This document shows, piece by piece, positions 12,044 through 19,085 of a stretch of 64,000 nt of DNA. A program made the position numbers and the translations under genes. The stretch comes from Hansfordia pulvinata (Eukaryota > Ascomycota > Sordariomycetes > Xylariales). The notes under the pieces were generated by a model. It searched no databases and was not told the origin of the DNA. It worked only from the letters and a program-made list of their open reading frames with translations. Numbering within the stretch: the first letter of the stretch is position 1; each line of letters starts with the position of its first letter. The stretch spans positions 1,179,501-1,243,500 of the forward strand of contig BJKQ01000011.1 in NCBI GenBank assembly GCA_006538405.1, written 5' to 3'.

Positions 12044-15000
12044 TCAATCACTAATTTCAGGTACCATGGCCGAACTTGGGAGTCTATCTGGCTCGAATCG
12101 GAAAATGAGAACGTTCCCAGACCTTGTCCCGATTGCAAGGATTGTCCCCTTCACTGCCGCGACGGTGGGCCTCGCACTCGCCGGCAACCACAGCAACGAC
12201 TGGCCATTCCATGTAACCCAGCATTCATCTGGACTGATGCGAATGCCCGAACGGCTCTCGCTGTGCACACCTGCTCGGGAATCCATGGACCAGCGATGTT
12301 CTTCCTGATGCCGGATAGCCAACATAAACAGTTCAACATCCTCATGAAGAGACAAGTGGTCCGAGGACACGGAAGCGGCGACATCTTCATCGCTCATGTC
12401 GTTCCCGTACATCTCAACGAGGTCGCCCGTTGTCGTCGACCAAACCCGCACGGTAGCACCATTCCACACCAACGCCACTAGGGAGCTCTTGGGTGAGAAT
12501 GTAACAGTAAAATCGTATTTTCTCTCCACATAATCCCGGACTATGGGGTGTAAACAGCCTGTCACCGCCGACCAAAGCTCAACATAGCCATCGTCCCTTA
12601 CCGTCGCCACCAAAGTGTTATCGGGCGAGAACGCAACAGCGTGCGCCCGCCCTTCGTGGCTTCTGAGCGTGTGCTGGCAATGCCCTGTAAGCGCTGACCA
12701 AAGCCGGATGGTATAGTCGTTAGACGCCGATGCCACCAAAGTGTTGTCATGCGAGAACGCAACAGCGCACACCCGCTCTTTGTGACCTTGAAGCGTATGC
12801 TGACAATGGCCCGTCACCGTTGGCCAAAGCTGGATGGTCCGGCCAGACGCCGACGCCACCAGAGTGTTATCGGGCGCGAACGCGATTGCATGTACGCGAT
12901 GCTGATGAATGTCCAGCTTGTGATTATAGCGGCGCCTGGATGTAGAGCAGAGGCGTACACTGCTTTGATCTCTCAAACCCAACCAACACGGCGTGGACGC
13001 AACGAGAGCGCCGTCGGACGAAAACGTAATGATGCCCATTTGATCCCAGTTGTTCGTCAGCGTCTGCTCGCAACGGCCTGTTGATACTGACCACAGCTGA
13101 ATTGTGCCGGACCTTGATGCCGCCATCACTAGGCCATCGGGCAAGAATTTGACTGCAACTATTTCAGGGTCATGTTCCTCGATCGTTAACAAACATTCAC
13201 CCGTTGCCATCGACCAGAGCATTATGATGCCACTGTGCGACACCGAGGCCGACACCAACAAGGCACCGTCAAGCGAGAAGTCGATCACGCTGAATAAGTC
13301 ATGGCCACCAAAATTATATTGGCAGCAGCCCGTGGATGTGGACCATATTCGGAGAGACCTGTCGCGTGATGCTGACGCGAGTAAGACGCCATCGGGAGAG
13401 AACTTGATGACGTAAATTCTGTTTGTATGACCGTGTAGCGTCTTGTCACAGTTGCCTGATTGTGTCGAGCAAAGCTGTATGCTGTGGCGTAAGTCTGAAG
13501 CTATGGTGGTGCTATCGGGCGAAAACGCGACAACGAACGGATCAGCTCTCGAGGTGGTGACAATGCGTGTGGAGGAACCCGTCGACAACTGCCAAACTCT
13601 GATTGCGCCCTCTCCTTGCGAAGCAATCATGGCTCCGTTGGGCGAGAACCGGGTAGTGTATGTAATGTCTGTACCATTGTCGTTCTCAAGTATCTGCTTG
13701 CACTGCCCTGTCGAGGTAGACCAGAGGCGAATGGTGTTGTCAGATAATGCAGTTGCTATGAAAGCCCCGTCCGGTGAGAACGCAAGGTCCCAAATATCGT
13801 TGTCGTGGCATTCTAGTGTCTGTTCACAGCGCCCTGTTGGAACTGACCAGATCCAGACAACGCCTTCACTGGCTGAAGCCAATAGGGCACTGTCAGGCGA
13901 GAATGCGAGGCCGCTCACAGAACCTGGTAGGCCCTCGATCACATACTTGACATGAGGCCACTCGCTATCGATTTCGGGATACACGCTTATCCAGCTTGGC
14001 CTTTTCGAGTTGAACATCTGTCGAATCTGGCATTGGGTAGGGGCAAAGCAGAGGGCCGAGGCATACACCTGCAAGGGGGCCGTATCGATAGTCTTCGCAT
14101 TGTGTTCCAAGAATCGTATGGCGCCATTGAGTAGGTGCTCTAACTCCTCGCACGACCCGGGCTTTACATCTGATTAGAGAAGTTTTGAAAATGGCTGATC
14201 TGGATTCCTAACTTGCCTGTAGAATCGTTCGTAAGCGCCGGACTGCGTCAAATGTTTCGAATGCTCTGCCCAGGAGCGCCATAGCTTCTACCCAGTGGAG
14301 CAAGTGTGACTTGATGAAGCTGTGGGAGTCGTCACCGTCGTGTAGGCTGAACTTCGCATGTTGAAGATGATGTGTCCAATATATGCAAGCGTATTGGAGC
14401 TCTTGAGGCAGTGCATGCTCAATGGCCTGCGGCGAGACGGTATCGCGCTTTCTACCTGGCCATTGCATTCTGGCGATATCTGGCTTCAATCTTGTCATGA
14501 CCACAAGACACCGCAGTGCCAGGATTCGATGTGTTTGTTGCTCGTCGACCCAGAACGGGCTCCCACGCCGCTCAGGGGCGATGAGAAAATCTCGAAAGGA
14601 CAGGTGGAAGATTCTGATGGGGTCATAGAGGTTTTGCGGGACGAGTATGACAGAGTGCAGGGGATTTAACCTTATAGTTATGTCGCCGGGTTTCTTGTCC
14701 AAGAGTTGTGCCAAAGCGCCGATGGATATAGGCCGAGCCAGCAAGATGATGGACCCAACTATGGACTGAAATTGAGCAAGAAGAGTTTTGGTATCGATCA
14801 CTGGTCGCCCTTCAATTTGATTGTTGAGAATGGGCATGTAGGTTGCCTGCAGTCGGTCGCCGTGATCGGCGATTCCTTGGGAGAGAAATGCCTGCAGTTT
14901 GTCATCTGGCCTGCCAGTTATGGTGTCTTCCAGGAAGCGACAGACAGTGGCGGCAAAAATGAATAGAGGTATTGCCATGTTCACGAGACAGTCGAAATCT

Positions 15001-15980
15001 TCTTGCTTGGGCCATCTTGAAGGGATTTGCAGGGCTTGCATCTCCAATATGTTGAAGTCTTGGCGAATTTTTTCAAGCCTCACGCGTAAGACGGCGTCAA
15101 TATCGCGCTTAATGACGGACTCCGGAACTTCGTGGAGGACAAAATTGGGGATATCGCCTATTTTTTCGCCCATTTTTTTGAAGCCTAAACGGATCGGGAG
15201 CTCTGGTCTACTAGTGACAAAGAACCGAATCCTGGACGGCCGAGTCGCGTTGGACTGAGAGAAGAGTTCAATCAAGAGATCCATGTCCTTCTCGTTGTCA
15301 CACTCGTCAAGAGCGTCCACCACAACGACCAGCGGCTTTTGGCGAGACGCTAGGGTGGGACTGGAGACCGGGTCCACGATCAGTTTGCCAAACTGCTCGT
15401 GAATTGCTTTTGTGGCAATGGAAGCGTTGGCAGCAACGGCTGACCGAATCACCGATTCAAGTGCCGGCTGTCGATCCCTAATCTGTGCTGCAATAGTAAC
15501 GCAGAACTTCGAGGCGTTGCCACGATCGCCGTCACCTCGCTTGAAGAAGAAGCTTGCACCGAGGTGTCCGTCATGGTTTAGAGCGTGTGCCACGGTCCTG
15601 GAGATGGTCGACTTGCCCGTCCCGGCCATGCCGCTCAGCCAGTAGACGGGTTTGGTGTCGGGACTGCGAGCCCAGGACTTGATCTCCTGCAAGACTTCTT
15701 TCCGTGTACCGTCGTGGCATCGATCATTGTGTTCTTCCGCGTGAGAGTCGTGGGCGGCACCCTCCACAGGCTTGAGATGCTGTTGTCCATAGTAGTTGTT
15801 GGTGACAGATCCTATCATGGTCAGCTTTGGGGGGCCTTGAAAGGATCAGCTAGGCAGAGACGGCATACCTGTGATGTTTGACTGGTTAACGTTGCCTGCC
15901 ACTACGCCATGTCCTGCATCGATAGCGCCGTGGTATGTTGTGTTGGTTGACCGTGACGCTGGATTCCCATCACGATTCAT
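12044..15980 (-). CDS. NACHT-WD40 NOD-like receptor with N-terminal amyloid-type motif
   Basis: There are three exons: 15980-15869, 15811-14217 and 14161-12044. Intron 1 is 57 nt. Intron 2 is best read as a GC-AG intron (CAG/GCAAGT ... GTAAAG, 55 nt). The product is about 1274 residues, with no frame break. It has only a short N-terminal motif (about 12-48: YHGAIDAGHGVVAG then NITGS) in place of an effector domain. A NACHT NTPase follows, with Walker A GMAGTGKST (98-106) and Walker B VVVVDALDECD (199-209). About twelve WD40 repeats span roughly 640-1160. They are mostly diverged, but three consecutive repeats share near-identical cores (TGHCQHTL). Fungal STAND proteins of this type sense a cue through the repeats, oligomerise through NACHT and template partner proteins through the motif. 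The gene is divergent from a SesB-like gene carrying the same motif. The sensed ligand is unknown. Confidence 0.92.
15869..15980 (-). other. Exon 1 of the NLR: amyloid-type signalling motif
   Basis: This 112-nt exon encodes 37 residues plus the first base of a Gly codon and consists of little but the motif: YHGAIDAGHGVVAG, then NVNQSNIT-G. The pattern x-A-x-H-G-V-V-x-G followed by N-I-x-G-S recurs in the PNP protein and, in part, in the SesB-like hydrolase of this cluster. The low-charge, Gly/Asn/Val-rich character resembles the sigma class of fungal amyloid signalling motifs. Confidence 0.8.
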
Positions 15981-16295
15981 GATGGCGGGATGACCGGAAT
16001 GCGAGAGGCAATGTCCAAGAGAGAAAAATGCGACGTAGGAGAGCGGACTTGGCCAGATACTTATATTCCAGCTCCGCCCGAGTGTTTGGCAAGGCTGCGG
16101 TGGGGGCACGGCCTCAGACGCCGCACAGAGCAGCAACGTGATTCGGCAACATGAGTTGCGTGGCTTCGCAGCCCTTGGCCGATCTGTGCGGGGTAAGTCG
16201 CCTTTAAGTAGCACCCCTTTACGTCTTGCTCAGGTTGATTCTGCTCGAGTTTTCATGATATATCAACATTGAACCGAACCGATCGCATCTCCACC
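15981..16295. promoter_or_regulatory. Bidirectional promoter of NLR and SesB-like genes
   Basis: Only 315 bp separate the two divergent start codons (15980 minus, 16296 plus), so the sensor and one effector probably share control elements. I do not see a clear TATA box. Confidence 0.6.
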
Positions 16296-17446
16296 ATGGT
16301 CGGCCTTGGGTTGAGCGACCCTTTTGTGGACATTGAGGAGGCGAAGGTCGAGTGAGTGATCTGCCCGTTCTTCTGTCTGATACGCTCGACCCTGAAGATT
16401 TGTAGCATCGTCTTTGTTCACGGACTCGGGGGCGACCGAGACCGGACATGGACGTTGCAGCAGGAAGGCGACGACATCTTCTGGCCGAGAGCTGTGCTCC
16501 CCAAAGCCTGCCCGACTGCCAGAATCTTCTCTTTCGGATTCAGCGCAAAGTTCAAGGACTTCTTCCCATCCGGGGAAGGCGCGGCCAAAGCTATCGACAA
16601 CCACTCGGCTACGCTGTTGAAGGAAGTTGCGGCTTTTCAGGAAGGAACGGAAACGGTGATTCCCCCACCTGAGACGTGATGCCTTGCCCCTTATCATGCC
16701 TCTGCTGACAAGCGGCGGTGTTTCTCAGTCGCACCTGCCGGTCATTTTCATCGCCCACAGCCTGGGCGGTCTCCTCTGCGCCAACGCGTTATCGATGCAA
16801 CCGGGCGCCGACGCCGACTGCGATGATCTCATAGACCGGACAGAAGGGCCGTCTTCCTCGGGACCCCGTTCGAGGGCCCTCAAAGGACGCGTGGGCAGTC
16901 CGGGCGTCGAAGTTCCTTGAGCTGGTCGACAGTCCCGCAGATGAAGACGGTGGAAGCCTCGAAGAGCGGTGGAAGAAACGGATGGGCATCGACCAGGCCT
17001 TCAAGAAGGTTCTCCAGGAAAGGGACCTGCTACAGGACAAGCGGCCAATCCAGAGAGCCTGCTTTTTCGAGGACCGCCCGGTCAAAAAGGGGAGCGGGGA
17101 GATCGGGGTGGTCGTACCTCAGAATTCCACTCGTCTGCCCGGGTCCGATCACATAAAGATCGACAAGAACCACCTCAACATCTGCAGATTCGACTCGAGA
17201 GACAGTCCGGGGTTCAAGAGCATATCGCGCGTCCTGTGCAAGTGGATCAAGGGCCTCGATCAACCTCGGCCAGGCGCGGGCAGCGGCAATGCTGTCACCT
17301 TCGGGGACGTCAACTATTACGACCAAGTCAATGCTCAAGGAGGTGTGGTCGTGGGCATGGCACATGGAGCCTCGCCTAATGCGGTCAACATTACGGGGAC
17401 CCAGACGAACGTAACTCGTCCCGAGGATAACAATAATGCATCGTGA
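16296..17446 (+). CDS. sesB: SesB-like alpha/beta hydrolase with C-terminal amyloid-type motif (two frame breaks)
   Basis: There are three exons: 16296-16351, 16406-16655 and 16729-17446, with introns of 54 and 73 nt. The oxyanion-side segment VDIVFVHGLGGD spans the first junction. The nucleophile elbow AHSLGG has Ser at about 113, and the family's FLGTPFEG segment follows. A candidate catalytic His lies in the SDHIKIDKNHLNI region. The C-terminus (289-332) carries the motif VNAQGGVVVG ... NITGT shared with the NLR and PNP genes. The reading frame slips -1 at the GGG of 16846-16848 and again at the CCC of 16877-16879; adding one base at each gives 341 residues. SesB-type proteins are lipase-like hydrolases proposed as cell-death effectors that are activated by an NLR through prion-like templating. 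The fold and cluster position are clear; the activity and substrate are inferred. Confidence 0.88.
17285..17416 (+). other. C-terminal amyloid-type motif of the SesB-like protein
   Basis: The segment holds GNAVTFGD, VNAQGGVVVG and NAVNITGTQTN, about residues 289-332. It follows the hydrolase fold directly and has no charge-rich linker. It matches the N-terminal exons of the NLR and PNP genes at A-x-x-G-V-V-V-G and N-I-T-G-[ST]-x-T-N. Confidence 0.75.
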
Positions 17447-17643
17447 GTGAGGCCACGCTAAAAACTGACAGAACTATCACGGCCACACGCCGACGCTCCC
17501 AGGCCGCCATGGCGACAGGAGTGGCGGCTGGTCTGGTAATTGAGTGTCTAATAGGTGAAGATGTAACGTTTGCTGGACACTGTAAGACCTGGCTACGATT
17601 TGCCAATAAAGCAAGTGACAAATAAAATCATGATCTACCGGCC

Positions 17644-19085
17644 TCAACCCGCCGGCTCGTCAGTGTGCATGTACTTGAAAAGGAGGCCCTTGGCCGCGGA
17701 GGCGGCGGCCGCGGCGGCGTAGTCCTGCCAGTCCTTGTGCTTGTGGCAGTCGGCGTAGTCGCAGACGCCCTTGACGACGACCACGGCCGGCAGCTCCTCC
17801 CACACGCCGGCGCCCTCCATCTCGAACCCGATCGCCCCAAAGTCGCGCGCCAGCTGGTCGCGGTGGCTGGCCGACCGCAGCACCCGGTTGGCCGAGGCCA
17901 TCGTCCCGACGTGGACGGCCGGCAACGGGGGCGCTTCCCCCTCTTCTCTCCCCCCGGCGGCGGCGCCCGCTGCCGCTGCAGGAACCCGGCCTCGCACCCG
18001 ATCTTGCGGCACGGCATGCGCATGGCCGCCTCGCAGACCACGTCGGCCGGGCCCGAGGCGTCCCCGCAGAGCGGGCACGGCGGGTCGGCGCGGTGGTGCT
18101 TGTGGGGGTAGGAGGCGCGGTACAGCTGGTCGCTGCTCGCGCCCGGGTAGTCGTACCTCCCGCCCTCGGACGCGGCCGCCTTGTCCTGGATCTCGCGCAG
18201 CGTGCACCGCACCCGGTCCCGCAGCGCGGCACGCCCGCGGCGCGTCTGCAGGGCGTCCAGCAGCCCGGCGACGTCGTGGCCCGGCCTCCTCAGCGTGTCC
18301 TCCGGCCGGGTGGACGCCGCGAAGCCGCCGGCGAGCTGGCGCCCAAAGTCGTACTGGACGACCTGCCTGCTGACGACGACGTCGCCGAGGAAGATGTCCC
18401 GGGCCGCGACTCCCCTGCCACTGCTGCTGCCGCTGGCCCGGGGCTCATCGGCGTCGTCGGCGTCCACGGCGACGGGCAGCCCGCCGCAGACGCCGACCAG
18501 CAGCGCCAGCCGCAGGCCCGGGAAGCTCGCGCGCAAGGAGGCGGCGGCGCTCGCGGACCGCGTGCTGCCCATCCGCGACAGCTGCGTCTGCACCACGTTG
18601 TGGCCCGCCGCCCGGCCCAGCGTGTAGTAGTTGTGGTCCCCCGCCGCCCGGCCGTGCAGCGGGGAGGAGGGGTCCTCGGCGTCGAACACGCGGTCGAGGG
18701 CGAGGTCGACGGCGTCGAACTCGAGCGGCAGCGCGCAGATGATGGCGACCTTGAAGTCCCGCCGGCTGCGGGGCTCGTCGCCGTCGCCGTCGCGCTCGGG
18801 GGCTCGCCCCAGGGAGCTGGGCGGGTGGCGCTGCGGCGGGTGGTGGTAATTGGTCTGGGAGCCTTTACTCAGTCAGTCAGTCAGTCAGTCATTCTGTCAG
18901 ACAGCCAGAGAAGTGAGACGGTCTTGATCGGATGCATGCAGAGACGCAGCGGGGCGGCGCCGGGCCGTACCGATGATGTTCGCGTTGGTGGCTTGGCCCA
19001 CCACGACGCCGTGGTTTGCGGTGATGGCGCCGTGGAACGTCACGTTGCCGGGCCTAGGGGCCGGGTCGCCGCTGCCGGTCCCCAT
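17644..19085 (-). CDS. PNP/UDP-type phosphorylase-fold effector with N-terminal amyloid-type motif (one frame break)
   Basis: There are two exons: 19085-18971 and 18862-17644. The intron is 108 nt (GTACGG ... GTAAAG). Exon 1 is the motif: PGNVTFHGAITANHGVVVG then NIIG. Exon 2 begins S-Q-T-N and after a proline-rich linker enters the nucleoside phosphorylase fold: KVAIICALPLEFDAV, a glycine-rich LALLVGVCGGLPV, then HVGTMASANRV, GFEMEGAGVWEELP and GVCDYAD. The frame slips -1 at a G5 run (plus-strand C run 17937-17941); one added G gives 444 residues. Stand-alone or NLR-fused PNP folds are common in fungal innate-immunity-like proteins, and relatives elsewhere cleave nucleotides. Here the motif suggests activation by the neighbouring NLR. 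The gene is strikingly GC-rich compared with the NLR and converges on the SesB-like gene (197 bp apart). Confidence 0.87.
18869..18890. repeat. TCAG tetranucleotide microsatellite
   Basis: About five and a half TCAG copies lie near the 3' end of the PNP intron, just before the acceptor. Confidence 0.85.
18971..19085 (-). other. Exon 1 of the PNP gene: amyloid-type signalling motif
   Basis: The exon has 38 codons plus one base. FHGAITANHGVVVG lines up with YHGAIDAGHGVVAG of the NLR, and NIIG/S lines up with NITG/S, where the slash is the exon border. Both borders fall after the first base of the Gly codon (phase 1). Confidence 0.8.

Follow-up and report, generated by a model that had tools for sequence, protein, structure and literature searches.

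The question raised by positions 12044..19085 of a 64 kb window, the whole stretch of DNA analysed here, on contig C11 of a 46.8 Mb genome assembly, is whether one short motif can connect a single NOD-like receptor (NLR) to two unlike enzymes. The genome reads as that of a filamentous ascomycete, as inferred from SesB and NLR homologs. Three genes lie side by side in this interval, which runs from the end of the NLR stop codon (12044) to the start codon of the PNP gene (19085): a NACHT-WD40 NLR, a SesB-like hydrolase and a PNP-fold gene. Gene modelling agreed with the initial annotation on this trio, its adjacency and its coordinates. A fungal NLR/effector module, in which one short motif links the NACHT-WD40 sensor to two enzymes, stands as the best explanation of the locus and is considered reasonably probable.

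The motif, A-x-x-G-V-V-x-G followed by N-I-x-G-[ST], had been claimed for all three genes, and a pattern search, pairwise shuffles and an independent profile bear this out. Across the six frames of the window, A-x-x-G-V-V-x-G...N-I-x-G matched exactly three times (17333 on the + strand, 19019 and 15917 on the − strand) and gave 0 matches in 200 shuffled windows, in which 3-base words were shuffled within 999-base blocks. The closing [ST] is coded past an intron in the NLR and PNP genes and contiguously in SesB. The initial annotation had asked whether the segments are any more alike than shuffled sequence. They are: among 21 motif pairs scored, each against 2,000 shuffles, the NLR-PNP score of 119 and the PNP-SesB score of 79 were reached by 0/2,000, and the NLR-SesB score of 50 by 6/2,000. 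The independent profile was made from 27 SesB tails of other fungi, pattern-picked among 45 proteins (P0002-P0046), with no window sequence. On the spliced motifs it scored 37.4 bits for SesB, 32.0 for PNP and 22.8 for the NLR, where the best of 5,000 shuffles each gave 12.7, 10.7 and 14.0. Among the 1,984 stop-free segments of the window, its four top ranks went, in order, to the SesB tail (34.5 bits, E 1.4e-9), exon 1 of PNP (23.0 bits, E 5.5e-6), exon 1 of the NLR (11.9 bits, E 0.016) and the beginning of NLR exon 2 (8.5 bits, E 0.18), the last reading T-M-I-G-S-V-T-N-N-Y-Y-G, the far end of the motif. Judged by their sequences, the NLR, SesB and PNP motifs are homologous, and the motif of the NLR is also found on the candidate effectors coded by adjacent genes.

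The NLR gene (12044..15980, − strand; exons 15980-15869, 15811-14217 and 14161-12044) encodes 1,274 aa, comprising a motif exon, a NACHT-type domain and WD40 repeats. Its spliced frame is open throughout, with 0 frame changes across 3.8 kb of coding sequence. The Pfam scan gave PF24883 at 113 bits and PF00400 in 8 stretches, and for the whole protein the best 25 of 63 matching families were all of WD40/propeller or NACHT type. The first 46 residues matched nothing in Pfam beyond chance (best VP4_2, E 0.44), in agreement with the claim that this NLR carries only the motif; the short motif occupies the N-terminus in place of an effector domain. Its exon 1 part lies at 15867..15950 (−), and after intron 1 (15812..15868, −; phase 1, GT-AG, 57 nt) it resumes as S-V-T-N-N-Y-Y-G, with the external profile matching both flanks. 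Intron 2 (14162..14216, −; 55 nt) is of the GC-AG type and had been missed by the first reading. In the WD40 part, two 112-nt stretches at 12601-12838 (−), lying 126 nt apart, share 79% identity, which mildly suggests exchange between repeats of the sensor.

The NLR and SesB genes are divergent, with 315 bp between their start codons in the gene models (15981..16295), and a promoter region within this interval is presumably common to both. The SesB-like gene (16296..17446, +; exons 16296-16351, 16406-16655 and 16729-17446) encodes an alpha/beta hydrolase with the nucleophile motif A-H-S-L-G-G. Its pieces are 36-60% identical to a SesB protein encoded on contig C15 and 34-41% identical to the external homolog P0002, and Pfam Abhydrolase_6 matched the first piece at 24.4 bits, slightly below the cut-off of 26.3. 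The shared motif is C-terminal (17288..17416, +) and was recovered by the external profile and by genome probes. In the AlphaFold2 (AF2) model of P0002, confidence is mostly good across the hydrolase part as far as residue 290, dropping at 71-90 and 161-190; the tail has low confidence (block means 43-60) and, going by the model, is presumably disordered. Foldseek placed alpha/beta-hydrolase enzymes at the top for P0002 (E about 1e-7), with TM-scores of 0.26-0.56 among the top 50; the nearest solved folds include thioesterases, a formamidase and a monoglyceride lipase, at modest TM-scores.

Comparison of homologs shows that SesB hydrolases of many fungi conserve the motif as their C-terminal tail. 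It was found on 35 of the 120 SesB homologs listed, out of 681 passing E 0.001: the 27 from which the profile was built and 8 held-out ones scoring 16-50 bits (P0033, with 3.6 bits, was left out of the count). Among the named sources are Lindgomyces, Neocucurbitaria, Aspergillus, Penicillium, Pseudogymnoascus, Phyllosticta, Xylariaceae, Podospora, Bombardia and Fusarium. The five core positions are occupied in turn by G in 41/41 ungapped sequences, V or I in 38, V or I in 35, M/A/T in 33 and G in 34; the middle one has V, I, L, M or F in 38/41, Q in 2 (P0023, P0028) and A in 1. The gene models of four SesB homologs (P0008, P0009, P0034, P0042) end directly before the expected motif tail, as if the tail exon had been missed in annotation, and in the C15 SesB gene the motif tail lies behind an intron. 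Two more SesB tail types are conserved: one, around S-G-G-G-A-I-F-M-G-N-V-x-A-G-R-D-F, on P0047, P0055, P0063, P0093 and P0097, the other, around F-N-G-P-I-S-G-x-N-V-I-x-G-x-Q-V-T-G-G-T-x-N-F-N, on P0057, P0059, P0062, P0065, P0066 and P0102. Neither can be aligned to the present motif, and both are possibly further signalling motifs. Alignment of the motif to two other SesB tail classes (A4, A5) gave nothing meaningful.

The PNP_UDP-fold gene (17644..19085, −; exon 1 19085-18971, exon 2 from 18862) converges on the SesB gene. PF01048 matched its first piece at 23.6 bits (E 3.9e-5), 1.5 bits below the cut-off of 25.1, the second piece gave no match, and the gene is not among the 12 PF01048 matches of the genome. 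A PDB sequence search with the PNP piece returned a single chance-level match. An intact PNP on contig C19 is 34% and 58% identical to it in two different frames, the latter over 77 residues, and F-E-M-E-G-A-G and C-D-Y-A-D are present in both; F-E-M-E/D we take to be active-site residues of PNP_UDP_1. This relative lies downstream of another SesB gene, and no motif was seen on it; the locus (L052:6993-9195), with a SesB-like gene followed by the intact PNP frame on the same strand, both motif-free, is a second SesB-PNP association in the genome. At three further loci (L013/L064 on C13, L015/L068 on C4, L021/L065 on C20) PNP matches are followed by NACHT matches on one strand within about 1.2 kb, and at L049/L059 (C4) a SesB match is followed in the same way by a NACHT match; these are likely all-in-one NLRs existing alongside the split architecture.

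In the window PNP gene, the motif is N-terminal (18969..19055, −), as in the NLR, while that of SesB is C-terminal, and it resumes as S-Q-T-N-Y after a phase-1 intron of 108 nt (18863..18970, −). Because exon 2 has no ATG upstream of the PNP domain, the gene requires a start exon further upstream. In each of the four genes that have the motif N-terminally, namely this PNP and the NLRs of the window, C15 and C7, a phase-1 intron of 55-108 nt occupies the identical motif position, directly before an S/N-x-T/N-N-Y/N stretch. Having both the N-terminal motif form and the matching intron, the PNP gene thus bears an NLR-type 5' end, and the sequence fits capture of such an end by a PNP gene. The GC content at third codon positions (GC3) is 0.98 in PNP exon 2 (18000-18862, −) versus 0.60 in NLR exon 2. 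So strong a difference in codon use makes a recent copy of the 5' end of this NLR in PNP unlikely, hinting at another origin or history for the PNP exon.

Elsewhere in the genome, motif searches, run at E up to 10 with scores for the best candidates only, connect the same kinds of genes. The PNP motif probe matched itself and the window NLR only (E 9e-4), the window SesB motif matched itself and two other SesB tails, and the C15 SesB tail matched itself and the window SesB. Of two external tail probes, one matched the C7 and window SesB tails only and the other the C7 tail only. Altogether, what the three window motifs and the external tails reached was confined to the three window genes and those two other SesB tails. 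The additional SesB genes (C15:1066663 down to about 1065540; C7 near 340200) each stand beside a divergent NLR, so that the divergent NLR-SesB order of the window recurs on both contigs. The C15 neighbour has NACHT and WD40-like repeats, the C7 neighbour NACHT and ankyrin repeats, and the motif, clear on the SesB side of each pair, has a related, weaker form in the first exon of the NLR: the C15 NLR-C15 SesB score was reached by 2/2,000 shuffles, and the scores of the C7 NLR with the window NLR and with PNP by 0/2,000. No further convincing motif was found in 5,220 segments from 39 other PNP, SesB and NACHT loci (one holding the window NLR), or in 7,416 segments from loci fetched earlier, with the 7 overlapping the window cluster excluded; introns may hide further motifs at such loci.

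Several results weigh against a module wired in this way. The C7 NLR motif probe matched itself only, the C7 and C15 NLR motifs scored 2.8 and -0.2 bits in the profile test, within shuffle range, and the C7 NLR-C7 SesB score was reached by 70/2,000 shuffles. Motif likeness within clusters is not uniformly above that between clusters: the C11 NLR is nearer to the C7 NLR (score 67) than to the C11 SesB (50). For sigma, co-evolution of the motif within clusters has been reported; these sequences show it only in part, the C15 NLR and C15 SesB having S-A-D-R-G in common. Searches in other fungi were of limited reach: that for NLRs with the motif (query NLR residues 1-100) gave 1/317 candidates at E up to 0.01, P0001, which on reading of its sequence matches only the NACHT-adjacent part, and that for PNP proteins with the motif (query PNP residues 1-60) gave 0/4 candidates at E up to 10. 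Outside this genome, the motif was seen on SesB proteins only. Lastly, neither effector gene is intact in this assembly, the SesB frame shifting twice, between ~16840 and ~16890, downstream of A-H-S-L-G-G, and the PNP frame once, between about 17976 and 17910.

The broken frames give rise to the rival explanation that survives best, in which the cluster is decaying: both effectors would be pseudogenes in this strain, only the NLR would be intact, and the module would no longer function here. This is a real possibility, if somewhat short of an even one. The three frame changes in the effectors contrast with none in the NLR, and the C7 SesB gene is likewise damaged (seemingly lacking part of the hydrolase domain and changing frame before the tail). 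Inspection by eye found no usable intron that could replace the SesB and PNP frame changes while sparing the conserved domain. On the other hand, all three changes adjoin short G/C runs, where assemblies also err, the frames are open on both sides of the breaks, and the motifs are intact. In the same genome the C15 SesB is unbroken through its exons, as are the SesB matches on C10, C19 and C7:318239, and the window elsewhere holds stop-free frames of 536 and 1,095 codons (putative genes). The breaks, due to either recent decay or mis-assembly, were first recognised in this analysis, the first reading having missed them. Its proposal of a dual-effector cell-death module stands in part: the homologous motif is on all three genes, with hydrolase and PNP as adjacent candidate effectors, and both effector frames are broken.

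Under the preferred reading, an NLR/effector module linked by the motif, the locus would be recently decayed or mis-assembled here and its sequence would record the ancestral wiring. Upon ligand binding, the WD40-NACHT protein would oligomerise, bringing its N-terminal motifs together. The clustered motifs may then nucleate a cross-beta, amyloid-type assembly that would template the SesB and PNP motifs. SesB, as a putative lipase/esterase, and PNP, as a putative nucleoside or ATP N-glycosidase, would together cause membrane or lipid damage and nucleotide loss, leading to cell death.

The motif, proposed to form amyloid, was compared with the known families. Of the 27 tails, 26 were scanned with Pfam amyloid-motif models at an E limit of 10, a setting in which HMMER filters drop many weak matches; none matched, and the published patterns for PUASM, sigma A, sigma B, PP, the RHIM/PP core and GDQN were found in 0/42 aligned motif sequences. 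For sigma, PF17106 matched none of 26 tails, GxGxQF and GGTQN occurred in 0/42 sequences, and alignment to sigma tails gave 5 chance columns. For PP/RHIM, neither PF17046 nor the RHIM model matched, G-phi-Q-phi-G occurred in 0/42, and hhalign gave a probability of 1.3% for its alignment to one PP tail, which spans 17 columns at the core; the sole PF17046 match in the genome is on C5, below cut-off. PF17046, named 'Ses_B', is in fact the PP motif, misnamed (PMC12261475). HET-s/HRAM motifs (21-residue repeats), with HRAM covered by PF11558 only, gave no PF11558 match, and the first PUASM type, FxGxGxQxxGxGxF, was found in 0/42 sequences. Weak Pfam matches were to DUF3659 (one tail, E 0.0036, below cut-off) and PAF-AH_p_II (two tails, best E 0.0035). 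In the profile comparison suggested by the initial annotation, no relation to sigma, PP or HET-s was detected by Pfam model, nor to sigma or PP by published pattern; the three segments match the profile of external SesB tails.

These negative comparisons favour a second rival, in which the motif is a non-amyloid homotypic element, e.g. a small beta-arch or beta-helix oligomerisation tag, recruiting effectors stoichiometrically to the oligomerised NLR. This we regard as unlikely, since the length, position, G/N richness, low-confidence tail and adjacent NLR/effector coding fit published amyloid signalling motifs. RHIM and PP have G-(I,V)-Q-(I,V)-G in common (PMC7885112), and a distant kinship of the present motif to them, with V for Q, is possible on sequence grounds. 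The motif could also be the same as PF01048_015 (PUASM 2), for which four pairs were reported (PMC9815663). A more specific account is put forward tentatively, as something possible: 'GVVxG' would be an undescribed amyloid signalling motif family, widespread on SesB proteins of filamentous ascomycetes, with a G-[VI]-[VI]-x-G core that may be a distant RHIM/PP relative with V in place of the central Q, and with conserved G-D-V-x-F and R-I-x-G-S...Y-x-G arms, here driving two unlike enzymes, the PNP having arisen by fusion of a sensor-type motif exon to the enzyme N-terminus.

A third rival, quite improbable, concerns the PNP gene only, which would be a by-product of fusing an NLR-type 5' end to a PNP gene and, if active, a competitor or regulator capping the motif of the sensor. 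The N-terminal motif, where the effectors described in the literature covered carry theirs C-terminally, the NLR-like exon and intron, and the GC3 difference agree with this. Against it, PNP is an established effector domain of fungal NLRs, PNP matches precede NACHT matches at the three loci described above, and SesB and PNP stand in tandem on C19. PNP_UDP domains have been described as immune ATP nucleosidases of bacteria and as common in the NLRs of fungi (PMC10197012, PMC12881547). Chance likeness between Gly/Asn/Val-rich segments is hardly credible. In its favour, the genome abounds in matches to the GVVxG-only DNA pattern (1,918 forward, 1,849 reverse; 2,148 and 2,120 for the reversed-pattern control), so that the signal is carried by the extended motif. 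The shuffle, independent-profile and genome-wide tests speak against chance, which the shuffles have already refuted for NLR-PNP and PNP-SesB.

Should the motif prove to signal through amyloid, NLR-controlled cell death would gain a set of SesB-type proteins from many fungi, and the fungal motif catalogue (HRAM, PP, sigma, PUASM, GDQN) one family, whose core could be used to test the need for the RHIM/PP glutamine in amyloid signalling. The N-terminally tagged PNP would point to exon capture as a way of wiring a new effector to an existing sensor, and N-terminal tagging would be a second route to new amyloid-wired effectors.

How the locus compares with known systems differs from what the initial annotation assumed, namely a single effector for each NLR. 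In published triads, two effectors share one motif with one NLR: PNT1 with HELLP and SBP, and HET-eN with SESA and SESB (PMC5485727), as well as the sesA/sesB/STAND and Goodbye-HeLo/sesB/STAND clusters (PMC3321046). The dual-effector idea is, on these accounts, not new. A 2012 paper reported UDP-phosphorylase/STAND pairs that have an extension of sigma type (PMC3321046). SesB-type proteins carrying a PP or sigma motif have been described, as have UDP-phosphorylase/NLR pairs (PMC3321046, PMC5485727, PMC9815663, PMC12261475, PMC7885112, PMC10197012, PMC12881547 and PMC12258605 taken together). In the text passages covered, no description was found of this motif family, of SesB and PNP on one motif, or of an N-terminally tagged effector; tail exons and 5' motif exons behind introns readily drop out of gene models, a possible reason why the family was not found in print.

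PNT1/HELLP/SBP of Chaetomium globosum resembles the present cluster in having one NLR and two effectors, one a putative lipase, on one short motif (PMC5485727). Its second effector is a HeLo-like pore former, whereas here it is PNP, and its PP motif has a conserved central Q in G-phi-Q-phi-G, a position here mostly occupied by V/I/L/M/F. HET-eN/SESA/SESB of Nectria haematococca likewise combines an NLR, SesB and a second effector in one cluster, and the motif of its NLR had been concealed by an intron near the 5' end of the gene (PMC3321046). Its sigma motif consists of GxGxQFNxx and GGTQNINT repeats; the window motif has neither and gives no meaningful profile alignment with it. NWD2/HET-S of Podospora anserina also has a NACHT-WD NLR without effector domain, with an N-terminal motif and an adjacent effector gene, but the motif is of the HET-s type and there is a single, HeLo effector, in contrast to the different motif and two effectors here. 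In the UDP-phosphorylase/STAND (Aspergillus oryzae, sigma type) and PUASM pairs, a PNP_UDP effector stands beside an NLR with a common motif, as in the window; in the accounts of these pairs the effector motif is C-terminal, whereas here the PNP motif is N-terminal and a SesB partner is present. As far as the literature covered extends, what is new at this locus is the motif family, the combination of SesB and PNP on one motif, and a PNP tagged N-terminally by way of an NLR-type first exon with an intron of the same phase.

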